Part shown: one piece after another, positions 9,575 through 27,047 of the stretch
Layout: each line of letters opens with the position of its first letter
Numbering within the stretch: position 1 is the first letter of the stretch
NCBI GenBank assembly: GCA_011390675.1
Contig: JAABRX010000025.1
Span: 1 to 39,611, forward strand
DNA length: 39,611 nucleotides
Source: Trueperaceae bacterium
GTDB lineage: Bacteria; Deinococcota; Deinococci; Deinococcales; Trueperaceae
Reading direction: 5' to 3'
The notes under the pieces: generated by a model
Told to the model about the DNA's origin: nothing
What the model saw: only the letters and a program-made list of their open reading frames with translations
Databases searched by the model: none
Program-made: the position numbers and the translations under genes

Positions 9575-9811
9575 GTGCCCCACATCATTGCCGAACCCTG
9601 CATCGGGGTCAAAGACCAGGCTTGCGTCGACGTCTGCCCCGTCGAGTGCATCTACGAAGCCGACGACCAGTTCTACATCCACCCCGAGGAGTGCATCGAC
9701 TGCGGCGCCTGCGTTCCGGCGTGCCCCGTCGAGGCGATCTTCACGGAGGAGGACACCCCCGAGAAGTGGACGTCGTTCATCCAGAAGAACTACGACCTGT
9801 CCGGCGTCTGA
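9575..9811 (+). CDS. fdxA: Ferredoxin, 7Fe (3Fe-4S/4Fe-4S) type
   Basis: GTG after AGGAGGG; MPHIIAEPCIGVKDQACVDVCPVECIYEADDQFYIHPEECIDCGACVPACPVEAIF. Confidence 0.93.
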   Translation: MPHIIAEPCIGVKDQACVDVCPVECIYEADDQFYIHPEECIDCGACVPACPVEAIFTEEDTPEKWTSFIQKNYDLSGV

Positions 9812-10917
9812 GCGTTCGTCTCGACGCCCGCAAGGCGCACCAGGACCGACTCGAGCACCTCCACCGCGCGATCGAACTCGCGCAGCGGTAGGTGCTCGTT
9901 CGGCGTGTGGTCGAGCGCCGCGTCGCCCGGGCCGTACGCCAGCGCATCGACGTTCCATGCGGGCGCCACGACGTTCCAGTCGCTGGTGCCGGTCTTGACC
10001 TTGATCCCCGGCCGGAGGCCGGCGGCGCGGATCGCGACGCGGAACGCGCGCGCCAGGACCCCGTCGCGATCGCCGCGGACCGGGACCTCGCCCGCGTCGG
10101 CCCGGACCGCCACTCCACCCAGTTCCAGGTCCGCGAGCTCCGAGCGCAAGCGGTCGGGCGGCCACGCGAGCGGCAACCGGAAGCCGAGCTCGGCCGTCGC
10201 GCGCTCCACGAGGCCGTCGCCGTCGCTGGCGAGGCCGAGCAGCGCCACCTGCAGGCGCCCGAACGGACCGCCCTCCGGTGCCGCGGCGTTGACCGCATCG
10301 GTCCACGCGCGGACGCGCGTCCACGCCTCGACGAGGACCTCGGCGGCGGTAGCCTCCTCGCGCGCGGTGTGCACGAGCGCGCGCCGCGCCTCGAGGCGCA
10401 CCCGCAAGCGCCCCTTGTAGCCGAGCGTCACCGCGTCGGCCCCGCTCGGCTCCCCCACCACGAGCAGATCGGGGGGCGGCAGCGTCGCGAGCAGGTGGCG
10501 CGCGCCGCGGCTGCTCGCCACCTCCTCCTCCACCGCCCCAGCCCAGCGCAGGGTCCACGCCGCCCGCACGGGCGCCGGAGCGCGCGCGAGCGCCACCGCC
10601 GCGGCCACCGCGCTCGCCTTGGCGTCGACGCTGCCCCGCCCGTAGAGCACGTCGTCCTCGATGCGGACCGGCACGACGCCGGGCACCGTGTCGAGGTGCC
10701 CCAGGAACAGCAGCGCTCTCGTGCCCGTCCCCGCCTCGGCCCGCGCGTTGCCGGCCTCGTCGACCCACGCCCGGTCCACGTACGGCGCGAGCGCGCGCAC
10801 GAGCAGGCGGGCCACCGCGGCCTCGTCGCCGCTCACGCTCGGGGTGCGCACGGCCGCCTCGAGGAGCGCCCGCGCCCCGTCGCGGGTGGCGAGATCGAAG
10901 CGGTGCGGGACCGTCAC
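9790..10917 (-). CDS. lysK: [LysW]-lysine hydrolase (M20-type peptidase)
   Basis: TVPHRFDLATRDGARALLEAAVRTPSVSGDEAAVARLL...FLGHLDTVPG...YGRGSVDAKASAVAA...KVKTGTSDWNV; GTGA overlap with lysJ. Confidence 0.88.
   Translation of the reverse strand: MTVPHRFDLATRDGARALLEAAVRTPSVSGDEAAVARLLVRALAPYVDRAWVDEAGNARAEAGTGTRALLFLGHLDTVPGVVPVRIEDDVLYGRGSVDAKASAVAAAVALARAPAPVRAAWTLRWAGAVEEEVASSRGARHLLATLPPPDLLVVGEPSGADAVTLGYKGRLRVRLEARRALVHTAREEATAAEVLVEAWTRVRAWTDAVNAAAPEGGPFGRLQVALLGLASDGDGLVERATAELGFRLPLAWPPDRLRSELADLELGGVAVRADAGEVPVRGDRDGVLARAFRVAIRAAGLRPGIKVKTGTSDWNVVAPAWNVDALAYGPGDAALDHTPNEHLPLREFDRAVEVLESVLVRLAGVETNAQTPDRS
9803..9828. terminator. Stem-loop at the convergent 3' ends of fdxA and lysK
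   Basis: GGCGTC-t-GAG-cgttcgt-CTC-GACGCC; stem interrupted by one bulged t, spans both 3' ends. Confidence 0.4.
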
Positions 10918-12116
10918 CCGCGCAGGACGCGACCGAAGATCGCCACCGCCTCGTCGACCTGCGCCTCGGTGATGACGAGCGGGGGCACGAAGCGGATCAC
11001 GGTCGCGCCCGCGTTGATGGTCAGCAAGCCCTGGTCGCGCAAGGCCGCGATGATCGGCGCCGCCTTCTCCTTGAGCTCGATGCCCAACATCAGCCCGAGC
11101 CCACGGACCTCGCGCACGCGCTCGCTCCCGAGCGCCTCGATGCCGGCGCGGAAGCGCGCGCCCATCGCGGTGGCGTGGGCGATCAGGCCGCGCGCGTCGA
11201 GTTCCTGGAGCACGGCGAGACCGGCCGCGGCGGCCAGCGGGTTGCCACCGAACGTGGTGCCGTGGCCGCCGGCGGGCATGGCGCGAGCGACCGCGTCGGT
11301 CATCACGAGGGCCCCGATGGGCACGCCCCCCGCCAGCCCCTTGGCGAGCACCACCAGGTCGGGGACGACCCCGGCGTGCTCGCTGGCCAGGAAGCGACCG
11401 GTGCGACCGACGCCGCACTGGATCTCGTCGAACCCGAGCAGCGCCCCGTGCGCGTCCGCGAGCTCGCGCGCGCGCCGCAGGTACGCCGCGCTGGCGGGGT
11501 GCACGCCCCCCTCGCCCTGGACCGGCTCGAGCCAGATCATCGCGGTCTCGTCGGTGACCGCGGCCTCGAGCTCGGCCACGTCGTCGTAGCGCACCCAGTC
11601 GACCGGGATCGGCAACGGCTCGAAGGGCTCGCGGTACTTGGCTTCCCAGGTCATCGCCAGGGCGCCGAGCGTCCGCCCGGCGAAGCCGCGCTTGGCCGCC
11701 ACGATCCGGCGCCGGCCGGTCTTCGCGATGGCCCACTTGAGGGCGGCCTCGTTCGCCTCGGCCCCGGAGTTCGCCAGGAAGACGCGCTCGAGCGGGGCCG
11801 GGAGGTGGCGGAAGAGCGCCTCGACGAACTCGGTGCGGACGTCGTTCGCCAGGTTCTGCGGGCACACGATCAGGCGCCGCGCCTGCGTCGCGATCGCGTC
11901 GGCGAGCCGCTCGTTGGCGTGCCCGACGCTCGCGACCGCGATGCCCGCCATGGCGTCGAGGTAGCGCTTGCCGTCGGCGTCCCACAGCCAGGCTCCCTCG
12001 CCGCGGACGAAGGCGACGTCGGGCGACCACAACCCGGATGCGTGCCGGGCGTCGCGGGCGAGCAGGGCCTGGGTCGGGTTGGGGTCGGTCGGGGTCGGGT
12101 CGGTGGGGGTCGTCAC
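10914..12116 (-). CDS. lysJ: [LysW]-aminoadipate semialdehyde/ornithine-type aminotransferase
   Basis: VFLANSGAEANEAALKWAIAKTGRRRIVAAKRGFAGRTLGALAMT...LGFDEIQCGVGRTGRFLASEHAGVVPDLVVLAKGLAGGVPIGA. Confidence 0.88.
   Translation of the reverse strand: MTTPTDPTPTDPNPTQALLARDARHASGLWSPDVAFVRGEGAWLWDADGKRYLDAMAGIAVASVGHANERLADAIATQARRLIVCPQNLANDVRTEFVEALFRHLPAPLERVFLANSGAEANEAALKWAIAKTGRRRIVAAKRGFAGRTLGALAMTWEAKYREPFEPLPIPVDWVRYDDVAELEAAVTDETAMIWLEPVQGEGGVHPASAAYLRRARELADAHGALLGFDEIQCGVGRTGRFLASEHAGVVPDLVVLAKGLAGGVPIGALVMTDAVARAMPAGGHGTTFGGNPLAAAAGLAVLQELDARGLIAHATAMGARFRAGIEALGSERVREVRGLGLMLGIELKEKAAPIIAALRDQGLLTINAGATVIRFVPPLVITEAQVDEAVAIFGRVLRG
12071..12109 (+). repeat. G-rich low-complexity tract with G-quadruplex pattern inside lysJ 5' end
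   Basis: GGGTCGGGTTGGGGTCGGTCGGGGTCGGGTCGGTGGGGG. Confidence 0.7.
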
Positions 12117-12174: not shown

Positions 12175-12978
12175 TCAGTCCACCACGGTACCGCGGCCGG
12201 CGAGCGCCGCGCGCACGGGGGACGCGAGCCGGGCGTCGCCCAGCACCACGCGGCGCACCCCGCCCGCGACGGCTTCGGCGGCCCCGAGCACCTTCTTCTT
12301 CATGCGCCCCTGCGCCACCTCGAGGAAGCCCTCGACATCGGCGGCGGGCACGTGGGGGATCAGCGAATCGGGGTCGGGGAAGTGGCGGAGTAGGCCTGGG
12401 ACGTTCGAGAGCAGCAACAGCGCCTCGGCCCCGAGCGCGACCGCGACCGCCGCCGCCGCCCGGTCGCCGTCGACGTTGATCGCCACCCCCTCGGTGGAGG
12501 CGCCCGGCGGGGTGAGGACCGGCAGGTACCCGCCGTCCAGCAACAGCCGCAGCAGATGGGTGTTGACGCGATCGACGGTACCCGTGTGGTCGCCGTGCAG
12601 CACGATCGTGCGGCCGTCCTCGACGCTGCGCACGCTCTTCTTGTGGCGCCCCTCGAACAGCCGCCCGTCGAGCCCCGAGAGCCCCACCGCCGGAGCACCG
12701 AGCCGCTGCAGGCGCTCGACGATCCCCTTGTTGACCTTGCCGGCGTAGACCATCTCGAACACCTCGAGGGTGGCGCGGTCCGTGTACCGGCTCACGTGGC
12801 CGCTCGGGCTCGTGACGAAGCGCGGCGGGTGGCCGAGCGCCTCGGCGACGCGGTTCGTCTCGGCGCTGCCGCCGTGGACCAAGACGACCGGCACCCCCTC
12901 GGCCCAGAGCGCCGCGACGTCGGTCGCGACGGCGTCGAGGTCGACGCCCTCCGCCCCGCCGACCTTGACGACGATCAC
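12175..12978 (-). CDS. lysZ: [LysW]-aminoadipate/glutamate kinase
   Basis: MIVVKVGGAEGVDLDAVATDVAALWAEGVPVVLVHGGSAETNRVAEALG...VDGDRAAAAVAVALGAEALLLLSNVPGLL; GTG start at 12978. Confidence 0.9.
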   Translation of the reverse strand: MIVVKVGGAEGVDLDAVATDVAALWAEGVPVVLVHGGSAETNRVAEALGHPPRFVTSPSGHVSRYTDRATLEVFEMVYAGKVNKGIVERLQRLGAPAVGLSGLDGRLFEGRHKKSVRSVEDGRTIVLHGDHTGTVDRVNTHLLRLLLDGGYLPVLTPPGASTEGVAINVDGDRAAAAVAVALGAEALLLLSNVPGLLRHFPDPDSLIPHVPAADVEGFLEVAQGRMKKKVLGAAEAVAGGVRRVVLGDARLASPVRAALAGRGTVVD

Positions 12979-14207
12979 GCGCGCGCTCCCTCGGGTGCGC
13001 CGGTCCACACCGACGCGCCGCGGACCGCCGCCGACCAGATGGACCGGATCGGCCGGTCGAGCCCGGTCGGGAGCGCCACCGACGTCGCGCCAAGGTACGC
13101 GAGGAAGCGCGCGAACCCTGCCTCCAGGGCGGCCGCGACGGCGGGGCTGCGGCCATCGACGCCCGCTTCCCACCACCAGCCGTGCACGTTCAGGCGCTCC
13201 CCCACGAGCCGCGCGTCGAAGCGCGCCACGAAGCGATCGCCCACCACGACCGGGACCACGTAGTACCCCCACCGCCGCTCGGATGCGGGCTTGTAGACCT
13301 CCCAGACGTACTCGAAGCCGAAGAGCTTGGCCACGCCCCGGCGATCCCAGAGCAGCGCATCGAGCGGCGCGAGCACGCGAGCGACGTCGTGGTCCACCGC
13401 GGGCGCCCCCTCGAGGAGGCCCGGCAGCGCGGCGTACGGCTCGCCGTCCACGTCCCACGCCTCGAGCTCGCCGGCGTCGGTCGCTCGCGCCAACGCCGCG
13501 CGGCGCCCGGCCGCACCGCCGGGCAGCGTCCACGTGCTCGCGTCGGCCGCCACGCGCAGCGCGCCCGCCGCCTGCACCCGCCGGCGCACGAGCCGATCGA
13601 ACGCATCGACGTCGGATAGCGCCGGCGCGCGGAGCGCCCGCTCGGGCAGGCCGCGCTCCGCGAGGTCGTAGACGTGCCGGCCCCCCTCGCGGCCGACGGT
13701 CACCACCCGCCCCGTGTCCCACAGGGCGCGCAGCACGTGCTTGACCAGCTTCGGCCCGTACCAGCTGCCGCGCAGGTCGTCGCGCGCCGCGTCGTCGAAC
13801 CCGAGCGTCGTGCTCGGACCGGCCCGTTCGAGGCGCTCGAGCGTGGCGCGCACGGCGTCGGCGTGCTCGTCGAGGAACGCTCGCCAGCGCTCCTCGAAGC
13901 GCTCGAAGAACAGGCGCCGCGCCGGCCAGTCCTCGGCGAGCGTCAGGCACGCCTGCTTGTCCCACCCGTCGAGCCAGCGTCGGTCGACGTAGGCCGGGAC
14001 GTGCCAACCGTCGACGCGGTACCCGTCGACGCGCGCTTGCAGGACCAGGTCGTGGCTCCGACCCATCGGCGCGAGCGGGTCGACCTGAACGGTCCCGAGG
14101 CGCTCGACGACCTCAGCGAGCGGCGCGCGCTGCAGGTGGTGGCCCAAGATCGCTCGTGCCGCGTCCGCGCGCGCGACGACCCGCGGCGCGGCGACCGCCC
14201 TCGTCAC
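12975..14207 (-). CDS. Winged-helix DNA-binding protein, YcaQ/AlkX-like (HTH_42) DNA glycosylase family
   Basis: VERLGTVQVDPLAPMGRSHDLVLQARVDGYRVDGW...; QVD matches the Q-Phi-D motif of YcaQ-type proteins; LFGFEYVWEVYKPASERRWGYYVVPVVVGDRFVARFDARL matches the family C-terminal region. Confidence 0.8.
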   Translation of the reverse strand: MTRAVAAPRVVARADAARAILGHHLQRAPLAEVVERLGTVQVDPLAPMGRSHDLVLQARVDGYRVDGWHVPAYVDRRWLDGWDKQACLTLAEDWPARRLFFERFEERWRAFLDEHADAVRATLERLERAGPSTTLGFDDAARDDLRGSWYGPKLVKHVLRALWDTGRVVTVGREGGRHVYDLAERGLPERALRAPALSDVDAFDRLVRRRVQAAGALRVAADASTWTLPGGAAGRRAALARATDAGELEAWDVDGEPYAALPGLLEGAPAVDHDVARVLAPLDALLWDRRGVAKLFGFEYVWEVYKPASERRWGYYVVPVVVGDRFVARFDARLVGERLNVHGWWWEAGVDGRSPAVAAALEAGFARFLAYLGATSVALPTGLDRPIRSIWSAAVRGASVWTGAPEGARA

Positions 14208-15253
14208 GGGTGCAGACCGGGGAACCCGAGGCCCGCCCGCTCGTCCCAGCCCATCGCCACGTTGAGCCCTTGGAGGGCGTGCCCGGCGGTCCCTTTGACC
14301 AGGTTGTCGATCGCCGCCATCATCACCAAACGCCCGCTGTCGCGGTCGAGCGCGAAGCCCACGTCGCACCAGTTGGTCCCGTCGAGCCCCTTGGGGTCGG
14401 GCACCCGGTGGATCCCCTTGCGGGCCGAGACGATCCGCACGAACGGCTCGTCGGCGTACGCGTCGGCCAACGCGGCCTGCACGTCGCGCTCGCTGCTGCC
14501 GTCGTGGAGCCATGTGTGCGCGGTCACCTGGATCCCGCGGATGCGCTCCACCGCCGTGGCGGTGAGGTGCGGAGCGACCCCCGGGAACGCTTGGCGCACC
14601 TCGGCCTCGTGCCGGTGGCCGACCGGAGCGTAGGTGCGCACCACGCCCGCGCGCTCGGGGTGGTGGCTCGCCGGCCCCGGTTCGTGGCCGGCCGCGGACG
14701 AACCGACCTTCGCCTCGACGATCACGTCCTGGCGCGCCATCAGCCCGCCGCGCACGAGCGGCAACAGGGCGAGGATGGTCGCGGTGGCGACGCACCCGCA
14801 CCCCGCCAGCCGAGTGGCACCCGGGAGCTCGGGGTGGGTGCGGGTGCGGTCGAGCTCGGGGTTGGCGTAGACGAACTCGCGGAGGCGGTCGGGGTTCGGG
14901 TGCGGCCCGCCGTAGGTGCGCTCGAACGCCGCCGGATCGCGCAACCGGAAGTCGGCGGAGAGGTCGATCAGCACCGTCGCGCGCGCGAGGAGCGCGTCGA
15001 CCTGGCCGGCCAGCAGGCCGTGCGGCAAGGCCGCGACGACGACGTCGGCGTCCTCGAGCTCGGCGAGGGGCCGGAAGCGGAGGCGGGTGGAGCCGCGCAG
15101 GTTCGGGTGGACGAGGCCGACCGGGAGCCCCGCGTGGCGCTCGCTGGTCACCTGGGTGACCTCGAGGTGGGGGTGCCCGAGCGCCAGGCGCAGGAACTCG
15201 CCGCCGGCGTAGCCGCTGGCGCCGACGATCGCGACGGTGCGTCGTTCGCTCAT
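14204..15253 (-). CDS. lysY: [LysW]-aminoadipyl/glutamyl phosphate reductase (ArgC-like)
   Basis: [54 protein letters not shown]...[21 protein letters not shown]. Confidence 0.9.
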
Positions 15254-16179
15254 GCGGGCGAGGCTACCGCGGGGGTCGCGGCCGCGGGCGTGGCGGCGGC
15301 TGCGGTCGCGGCGGCGACGGCCGCCACGTGGTCGACCACCAGCCCGGGAAGGTCGACCCCCGTGGTGGCGACCGAGTTCCGGAACTCCATGGTGTGGTTG
15401 ACCTCGATGACGACCAGCCCGTCGTCGGTCTCGGCCAGGTCGACCGCCAGGACCCCGCCGCCGACCGCGCGCGCCGCGCGCACGGCGATGGCTTCGAGCT
15501 CGGCGGTCACCGGGCAGTTCGACGCTTGCGCGCCGCGCGCGGTGTTCGTGATCCAGTGCTCGCTGGTCCGGTAGATGGCCGCGACCACCCGGTCGCCGAT
15601 CACGAACGCGCGCAGGTCGCGCCCTGGCTTCTCCAGGTACTGCTGAAGGTAGACGACCTGGTGGCTCGGTCCCCCGAGTACTTCCTTGTGCTCGAGCACC
15701 GCGGCCACCGCGTCGGCGTCGTTGAGCCGGCTGACCATGCGCCCCCAGGAACCGACGACCGGCTTGAGCACGACCGGGTACCCGAGGTCCTCGCAGGCGG
15801 CGAGCGCGTGCTCGGCGTCGAACGCGACCACGGTGCGCGGCACCGGGACCCCGGCGGCCGCGAGGAGCGCGCTCGTGGCGAGCTTGTCGCCGCACGCCTC
15901 GATCACGCCCGGCGCGTTGACGACCGCGGCTCCCGTCGCAGCGAAGAGCCGCGCGAGCGCGAGTCCCCGCGTCTGCGACACGCAGCGCTCGAGGACCGCG
16001 GCGTAGCGCCGCTCGCTCGGCGCACTGAGGTCGAACGCGACGTGCGGGGCGTAGACCGACTCGAACGCGACGCCGCGTCGTTCGAAGGCTTCGAACAGGA
16101 GCCGCTCCTCGGGGCGCAGGCGGTCGTAGACGACGGCGATGCGCGCGCTCACCGCCGGCGCGCCGAGGACGTCGCTCAC
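15250..16179 (-). CDS. lysX: alpha-aminoadipate-LysW ligase (ATP-grasp)
   Basis: [83 protein letters not shown] start overlapping lysW stop. Confidence 0.9.
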
Positions 16180-16346
16180 TCGCCCCAGTCCTCGGCCTCT
16201 TCGGGTGCGGGTTCGAAGCGCAGCGGCGCGAGGCCGGTGACTTCGAGCTCGACGCCGTCGTCCGTGACGACGAGCTCTCCGAGCGCGAGGACGGCGGGAT
16301 CGACGTCGAGGGCTCCGTACGGGGTGGCGATCAGGGTAGCGGGCAT
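16176..16346 (-). CDS. lysW: LysW-type amino-group carrier protein, cysteine-free variant
   Basis: [56 protein letters not shown]; ends in EDWGE, AAGGAGG upstream, GTGA overlap with lysX. Not listed as its own ORF; contained in 16176..16817. Confidence 0.88.
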
Positions 16347-16417
16347 GGGGGCCTCCTTGGGTTTCGCTTCGTAAGTCCGGCGCCGAGTCGCAGTCCGTCG
16401 TTCGGCGCAACCCGAGC

Positions 16418-16447
16418 ATGCTAGTCGCTGGGTACGGGCGCCGTCAA
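16418..16447 (-). promoter_or_regulatory. Candidate promoter of the lysW operon
   Basis: Minus strand TTGACG (16447-16442), 18-nt spacer, TAGCAT (16423-16418), 72 nt upstream of lysW ATG. Confidence 0.5.
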
Positions 16448-16673
16448 GGCTTGCACGAACAGGCCATATCATCGCTCTGCACGTTCTTCTTGGTGGTCGG
16501 CCCAACGGCTTACGACTCGTCGTCCGAACCGCGATGCGACGGCGCGGCGGACGGCGATCCCGGCAGCGCACTTTCGTTTCGTAATCGCGGACCGTCCCAC
16601 CGCGCCGGATCGGACGTCGCCGGCGCGCGGCGCGACCGGCGCCGGCACCGGGTCTAGGTAGGCTCTGTCCAGG

Positions 16674-16679
16674 TAGGCT
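16674..16679 (+). promoter_or_regulatory. Candidate -10 box for leaderless mutY transcript
   Basis: TAGGCT followed by 7 nt and then the GTG start of mutY. Confidence 0.4.
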
Positions 16680-16686
16680 TCCCGCC

Positions 16687-17733
16687 GTGCGCGATGCCTT
16701 GCGAACCTGGTTCGACGCTGCGGCGCGACCGTTGCCTTGGCGTTCCGGGGCGGGGTCGGCGCCCCGCGACCCGTACCGCACGCTGATCGTCGAGACGATG
16801 GCGCAGCAGACCCGCATCGAGACCGTCGTCGCGCGCGAGAGCGCCTTCCGCGCCCGCTTCCCGGACCTGGCGTCGCTGGCGGCGGCGGAGCTCGACGACG
16901 TCCTGCACGCATGGTCGGGGCTCGGCTACTACCGCCGCGCGCGGGCGCTCCACGCGCTGGCGCGCGTCGTCGTGGCCGAGCACGGCGGACGCCTCCCGTC
17001 CGATCCGGGGGCGCTGCGACGGCTGCCGGGCATCGGCCCGTACACGGCCGCCGCGATCGCCGCCCAGGCCTTCGGCGTGCCCGGCGTCGCCGTCGACGGC
17101 AACGTGCGCCGCGTCGGCGCCCGCCTCCTCGCCGAGCCCACCCCGACCGACGCCCGCGTCGCGGGTGCCCTCGAGGACCTGCTGCTCGATGGGACGACCC
17201 ATCCGGACGACGCCTTCGTGGCCGAGGCGCTCGTCGAGCTGGGCGCGACCGTGTGCACCCCACGGCGACCCGCCTGCGGCTCCTGCCCGCTCCGACCGGC
17301 CTGCCGAGCCGCTGCCGAGGGCGACCCGGAGCGCTACCCGAGCCCGCGCCCGCGCGCCACCGCGCGGCGCTGGCCGCTCCACGCCTGGCTGACGACGCGC
17401 ACCGGGCCGAGCGGGGTGCTCCTCGCCGTCGAACGGAGGGCCGACACCGGCCCCTGGGCCGGCATGCACGGCCCCCCGTGGCGCGACCACGCGCCCGACG
17501 GGGGGCGCGAGCTCGGGCGCTTCGTCCACCGCCTCAGCCACCGGCTCGTGGAGGCCACCGTATGGGCCGCTCCGGCACCGCCGCTGGACGCGGACGTCCG
17601 CTGGGCGAGCGCTCGGGAGCGAAGCGGCCTCGGCATGGCGGAGGTCGATCGCCGTGCCCTCGCCTGGGTCGACGGCGACGGCATCGACGCCGACGTCCCA
17701 GCAGGCGAGCCGCAGCCGCCATCGCGCGGCTAG
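16687..17733 (+). CDS. mutY: A/G-specific adenine glycosylase
   Basis: LRTWFDAAARPLPWR...DPYRTLIVETMAQQTRIETV...RLPGIGPYTAAAIAAQAFGVPGVAVDGNVRRVGARL; CTPRRPACGSCPLRPAC fits the C-x6-C-x2-C-x5-C FeS motif. Confidence 0.93.
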   Translation: MRDALRTWFDAAARPLPWRSGAGSAPRDPYRTLIVETMAQQTRIETVVARESAFRARFPDLASLAAAELDDVLHAWSGLGYYRRARALHALARVVVAEHGGRLPSDPGALRRLPGIGPYTAAAIAAQAFGVPGVAVDGNVRRVGARLLAEPTPTDARVAGALEDLLLDGTTHPDDAFVAEALVELGATVCTPRRPACGSCPLRPACRAAAEGDPERYPSPRPRATARRWPLHAWLTTRTGPSGVLLAVERRADTGPWAGMHGPPWRDHAPDGGRELGRFVHRLSHRLVEATVWAAPAPPLDADVRWASARERSGLGMAEVDRRALAWVDGDGIDADVPAGEPQPPSRG

Positions 17734-26963: not shown

Positions 26964-27047
26964 GCCGGGATGGCGGAACGGTAGACGCAGTCGACTCAAA
27001 ATCGACCGGGGCGACCCGTGCGGGTTCGAATCCCGCTCTCGGCACCA
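26964..27047 (+). tRNA. tRNA-Leu(CAA), CCA encoded
   Basis: Acceptor GCCGGGA/TCTCGGC; anticodon stem GTCGA-CTCAAAA-TCGAC (anticodon CAA); long variable arm CGGGGCGACCCG; T arm GCGGG-TTCGAAT-CCCGC; terminal ACCA. Confidence 0.95.

Follow-up and report, generated by a model that had tools for sequence, protein, structure and literature searches.

The window analysed here, a 39,611-nucleotide stretch of DNA from a Trueperaceae bacterium (GCA_011390675.1, contig JAABRX010000025.1), carries on its minus strand a lysW gene at 16176..16346 (coding 16346-16179, stop 16178-16176), whose 56-aa product contains no Cys and ends in EDWGE, i.e., in the substrate-accepting Glu. The gene begins with ATG, and direct reading of the sequence revealed a strong Shine-Dalgarno-like AAGGAGG (16351..16358, minus strand) ~5 nt 5' of this start. 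Its identity is given by a match of residues 22-56 to the TIGR01206 (lysW) profile (1.6e-13, 50.3 bits; cut-off 53.2), a cut-off that most of its Cys-free relatives passed, and by 26 homologues in the family that share its Cys-free core. Pfam Zn_ribbon_LysW (PF21344) scored 23.1 bits against a cut-off of 27. The source assembly is a fragmented metagenome-assembled genome (MAG; 79% complete, 324 contigs), and the closest LysW relatives in named genomes were also from Trueperaceae MAGs. A MutY-like glycosylase gene (window 16347-17733) is oriented divergently from lysW, a pairing seen again in four other genomes (G001, G002, G003, and G004) and more loosely in other genera. An Rfam search of the window found no element near lysW; a tRNA gene (RF00005) was located at 26964-27044 on the plus strand.

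The genes that follow lysW are all on the minus strand. lysX, encoding the ligase that joins LysW to alpha-aminoadipate (AAA), occupies 15250..16179 (TIGR02144, 353 bits; cut-off 275.6), with a possible GTG start that overlaps the lysW stop, although the true start is uncertain. It is followed by lysY, an argC-type reductase gene (14204..15250) assigned from TIGR01850 (343 bits) and its position in the cluster; by lysZ, encoding [LysW]-aminoadipate kinase (12175..13008; NF010659, 438 bits; cut-off 223); by a lysJ-type aminotransferase gene (10914..12116), for which the LysJ model NF042418 was best at 456 bits (cut-off 700) and TIGR00707 was above its cut-off at 419 bits; and by lysK, encoding [LysW]-lysine hydrolase (9793..10851, with a start somewhat upstream of 10851; NF003367, 379 bits; cut-off 363). 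Between lysY and lysZ lies a gene for an AlkZ-like DNA glycosylase (13008..14180; PF06224, 151 bits) that is outside the carrier system. The AlkZ-like gene occupies the same place in G001, G004, G006, G007, G009, G018, and G019, and was not detected between lysY and lysZ in G010, G011, G020, and others.

An earlier note had described this as a complete lysine cluster, a description that does not hold. The cluster has the genes for the AAA-to-lysine half (lysW, X, Y, Z, J, and K); those for the homocitrate-to-AAA half are not beside them, and no homocitrate synthase above the TIGR02146 cut-off was found in the window's genome (G000) or in G001-G004, in a genus that includes a 97% complete genome (G004). 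Two related genes in G000 proved to be LeuA and CimA, and G000 also has a separate arginine locus (argF-like, argC, argJ). Across the family (f1), homocitrate synthase exceeded the cut-off in 10 of 39 genomes, comprising all five with a Cys-bearing LysW and five with a Cys-free one (G007, G017, G019, G020, and G025). It was absent from closed genome G011 and, despite retention of lysWXYZJK, had no match in G000-G004, G006, G008-G011, G018, G022, G023, G027-G031, and other f1 genomes. DapB was not found in the family outside genera g5 and g8, and is likewise missing from the window's genus. According to PMC3356886, Truepera has genes of the AAA pathway, and D. proteolyticus was the only member of the phylum reported to have a dihydrodipicolinate reductase; the proteins tabulated there did not include LysW. 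The joint absence of homocitrate synthase and DapB from the window's genus makes its supply of AAA, and hence lysine as the product, uncertain.

Two Cys-free forms of LysW

Since Cys makes up only 0.5% of the residues encoded by the cluster, the probability of finding none in 56 aa is ~0.76, and the absence of Cys alone is not unusual. The unusual feature is that four ligands conserved in the LysW family are gone. We searched 60 relatives with the TIGR01206 profile and read the matched sequences. Twenty-seven Trueperaceae genomes, including that of the window, were found to encode a Cys-free core whose length from first turn to last residue was always 49 residues (TPyG...vDp..leLGEL.V.D.G.ELEVV, 12 further residues, and.EDWGE), with a first turn of TPYG, TPHG, TPFG, TPQG, or TDYG. 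All four Cys were kept in genera g2, g9, g10, and g13, and every other LysW found in the family was Cys-free. The earlier note had set TPYG against CPECG and TDDG against CEDCG; these segments are aligned correctly, and comparison with Thermus LysW (CPEC and CEDC) adds that each knuckle is also one residue shorter in this form, here called type A. Over 351 pairs of the 27 sequences, median pN was 0.15 and median pS 0.56, a ratio that is only a guide because high G+C limits pS. Judged by these values, type A LysW is under purifying selection.

A frameshift, a misassembly, or an upstream start that had been missed could conceivably have hidden the cysteines, and the open frame does extend upstream in frame to 16817 and includes a CSGC. 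However, the ATG of lysW has its own strong Shine-Dalgarno sequence, and in relatives (G001 and G003, for example) the upstream stretch is unconserved and has no CxxC. The 49-residue Cys-free core recurs in 26 further genomes, which excludes sequencing error or frameshift; the chance of any such artefact is negligible. The Cys-free 56-aa LysW with a kept C-terminal half, lying before lysX, was described correctly in the earlier note, which named no strand: the reading frame, EDWGE, and the adjacent lysX were all found.

Mapping of the trait across Deinococcota, a check that the note had proposed, revealed a second Cys-free form. Type B carries NPE[TS]G and DDETG, keeps the knuckle length, and was found in three of the four genomes of family f5 and in four genomes (G067, G068, G072, and G076) of family f4, the Thermaceae, which includes Thermus and Meiothermus-like genomes. 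A further Thermaceae MAG locus (L036) encodes a type B LysW equal to that of G076. Of 66 LysW rows with a LysX, 33 had no Cys and the other 33 had four; intermediate counts never occurred. In a tree built from LysW only, types A and B each formed one clade with 100% support, and type B was placed closest to the Cys-bearing LysW of family f2. This support rests on the trait itself, since removal of the knuckle columns left 32 columns and single origin was then unresolved. On the LysX tree, seven changes of Cys state were needed; a single clade of type A was not rejected (p-AU 0.20), whereas grouping the four type B rows from Thermaceae in a single clade was (p-AU 0.0007). The latter value points to lysW replacement or repeated change, and replacement of lysW beside a resident lysX would be a natural reading for Thermaceae. 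Since the two types differ in both length and substitutions, at least two separate losses of Cys are likely on the aligned sequences.

Some further LysW-like proteins were encountered during these searches. A plasmid search found only Cys-bearing LysW, including in Streptomyces, in Staphylococcus, and on a Deinococcus plasmid (Deinococcus sp. NW-56, NZ_CP026518.1, L164) that has a lysU-lysW-lysX-lysY cluster. On Staphylococcus epidermidis plasmid NZ_CP043848.1 (L167), a LysW-like carrier lies beside a RimK-type ligase and perhaps belongs to a secondary-metabolite carrier system. In G052, a 100-aa protein with two zinc-ribbon repeats is encoded between lysU and the Cys-free lysW (L102:1480-1782, minus strand), and in many other genomes of the order similar tandem zinc-ribbon matches lie ahead of lysW.

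A carrier that probably works without zinc

Whether a Cys-bearing copy elsewhere serves the pathway was a further check raised by the earlier note. G000 gave no second LysW. In three single-contig closed genomes (G011, G017, and G020), no EDWGE-tailed LysW other than the Cys-free one was found; a Cys-bearing LysW-like frame in G020 ends in SDEWPR, without EDWGE, and another in G017 encodes a thioredoxin that has a zinc ribbon. The Cys-free Thermaceae genomes each gave a single LysW match. An AlphaFold model of the window's LysW (pLDDT 86) had five strands and a loose tail, and its best Foldseek matches in the PDB were LysW chains (3wwn_B, 3wwl, and 5eio_C; TM 0.62-0.75; best E-value only 1.3e-3), while a type B model reached a TM of 0.93 to 5eio_C (rmsd 0.9 A). 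The small five-stranded fold is therefore predicted to be kept without Cys; since the input alignments included Cys-bearing homologues, from which the fold may be borrowed, the models are supportive rather than independent.

The partner ligase shows little sign of adjustment. At nearly all loci that yielded both genes, lysX comes straight after lysW in the same orientation. In the window, lysX encodes GSWGR, a tail-recognition motif said to recognise EDWGE, and WITNTARG, with the Asn-Thr that is the signature of AAA-type LysX (PMC10433800). Both features are kept in the relatives as well, and a 13-residue motif and EVNHTMEF are also kept. Furthermore, no LysX column in the Trueperaceae and Thermaceae alignments separates Cys-free from Cys-bearing rows, and LysX of G072, whose LysW is Cys-free, is 96.4% identical to that of G080, whose LysW bears Cys. 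The suggestion that contacts with LysX had changed is thus not borne out, as the lack of any systematic difference between the Cys states argues against rewiring. Since a different Cys-free form occurs with near-identical LysX, the LysW enzymes apparently accept either scaffold.

Taken together, these results suggest that the window's LysW is a working carrier whose globular domain no longer uses zinc, a reading to which we give a probability of about 0.8, and that Cys-free LysW probably works without metal here and in most of the family. The metal-independent carrier proposed in the earlier note thereby gains indirect support: neither Cys nor a conserved set of His/Asp ligands takes the place of the knuckles, most of the family has this state fixed, the fold is predicted to be kept, and no second carrier was found. 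From sequence and AlphaFold model, two turns that are each one residue shorter (TPxG and [TS]D[DE]G) would close the same small beta-sheet in place of the CxxC knuckles, and the tail would thereby be presented from the same scaffold without metal. Given the observed gene adjacency and motifs, LysX would couple AAA to the last Glu of the retained EDWGE tail; LysZ, Y, J, and K would act next on the tethered intermediate, and LysK would free lysine. The type A change would have arisen in Trueperaceae, and the different Cys-free form elsewhere in Deinococcota.

Other explanations can be weighed against the same observations. If the bacterium spared zinc or avoided cysteine throughout its genome, the loss would have no cause specific to LysW, and the proteins of the cluster are indeed Cys-poor (0.5%); nevertheless, ribosomal L36, the sole other zinc protein examined, keeps three Cys and a His in each of the 27 genomes read, whether or not these have a Cys-free LysW. 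Because L36 keeps its cysteines, general zinc sparing is not indicated, and we consider this explanation unlikely. Binding of metal through other residues, for which the acidic residues of the second turn ([TS]D[DE]G, or DDETG in type B) might be candidates, is more unlikely still: there is no conserved His or Cys and no four-ligand set, and the position in the first turn varies among Y, H, F, and Q in relatives, so that no conserved ligand is available there.

The missing first half of the pathway raises the question of whether lysW is instead decaying, with loss of Cys as a sign of that decay. Homocitrate synthase is absent from the window's genus and from most Cys-free genera, and no lysW was found in G034, a genome of genus g8 with DapB. 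However, length and motif are the same in 27 sequences under purifying selection, the LysX motifs are intact, the five Cys-free genomes with homocitrate synthase show that the form also occurs where the first half is represented, and type B stands beside intact LysX in Thermaceae; we therefore regard a degenerate carrier as quite improbable. For genera without homocitrate synthase, candidate explanations are scavenging of AAA, a synthase that has escaped recognition, a different product, or auxotrophy for lysine in which the salvage half has been retained. One further proposal, which we advance tentatively and hold to be doubtful, is that in the window's genus and several of its sister genera selection maintains LysW and LysXYZJK in the absence of both homocitrate synthase and DapB, and that the carrier there operates off the textbook pathway, with AAA from an unrecognised source or a tethered route to some other product.

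Relation to known carriers

By its sequence, the window's protein is a Cys-free homologue of LysW and not a zinc-ribbon LysW. No mention of a Cys-free LysW was found in the literature; subscription journals were outside the search and a prior mention is possible. Many Cys-free homologues do exist, as the earlier note had considered they might, and in the accessible literature none is shown to be functional. The LysW of Thermus thermophilus (PDB 3wwl, 3wwn, 5ein, and 5eio) resembles that of the window in size, in a 25-residue stretch of the beta-core, and in its place before lysX (48.8-bit match, residues 21-56), and differs in having CPEC and CEDC zinc knuckles where the window has TPYG and TDDG, each one residue shorter. 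The LysW/ArgW proteins of Thermococcus kodakarensis, Sulfolobus, and haloarchaea (5k2m, 3vpb) share the EDWGE tail and a LysX/ArgX partner with GSWGR. However, these and other characterised LysW/ArgW proteins contain three or four zinc-binding Cys (PMC10433800), and the window's LysW has none. The type B proteins (G040, G048, G052, G067, G068, G072, G076, and L036) are like the window's in having lost four Cys while keeping the tail and the linkage to lysX, and unlike it in their knuckle length, their substitutions, and their lineage.

A conserved zinc-free LysW that arose in two ways beside a nearly unchanged LysX would separate the parts read by the enzymes (tail and beta-core) from the part that holds the fold. 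It would also provide tethered biosynthesis with a compact carrier free of metal, and allow a clean test of what zinc is for in LysW. A parallel is provided by the C-minus forms of the zinc-ribbon ribosomal proteins L31 and L36, in which the ligands are lost while fold and role are kept. Those forms are often zinc-regulated paralogues that occur beside a C-plus copy, whereas the Cys-free LysW is the only copy found.
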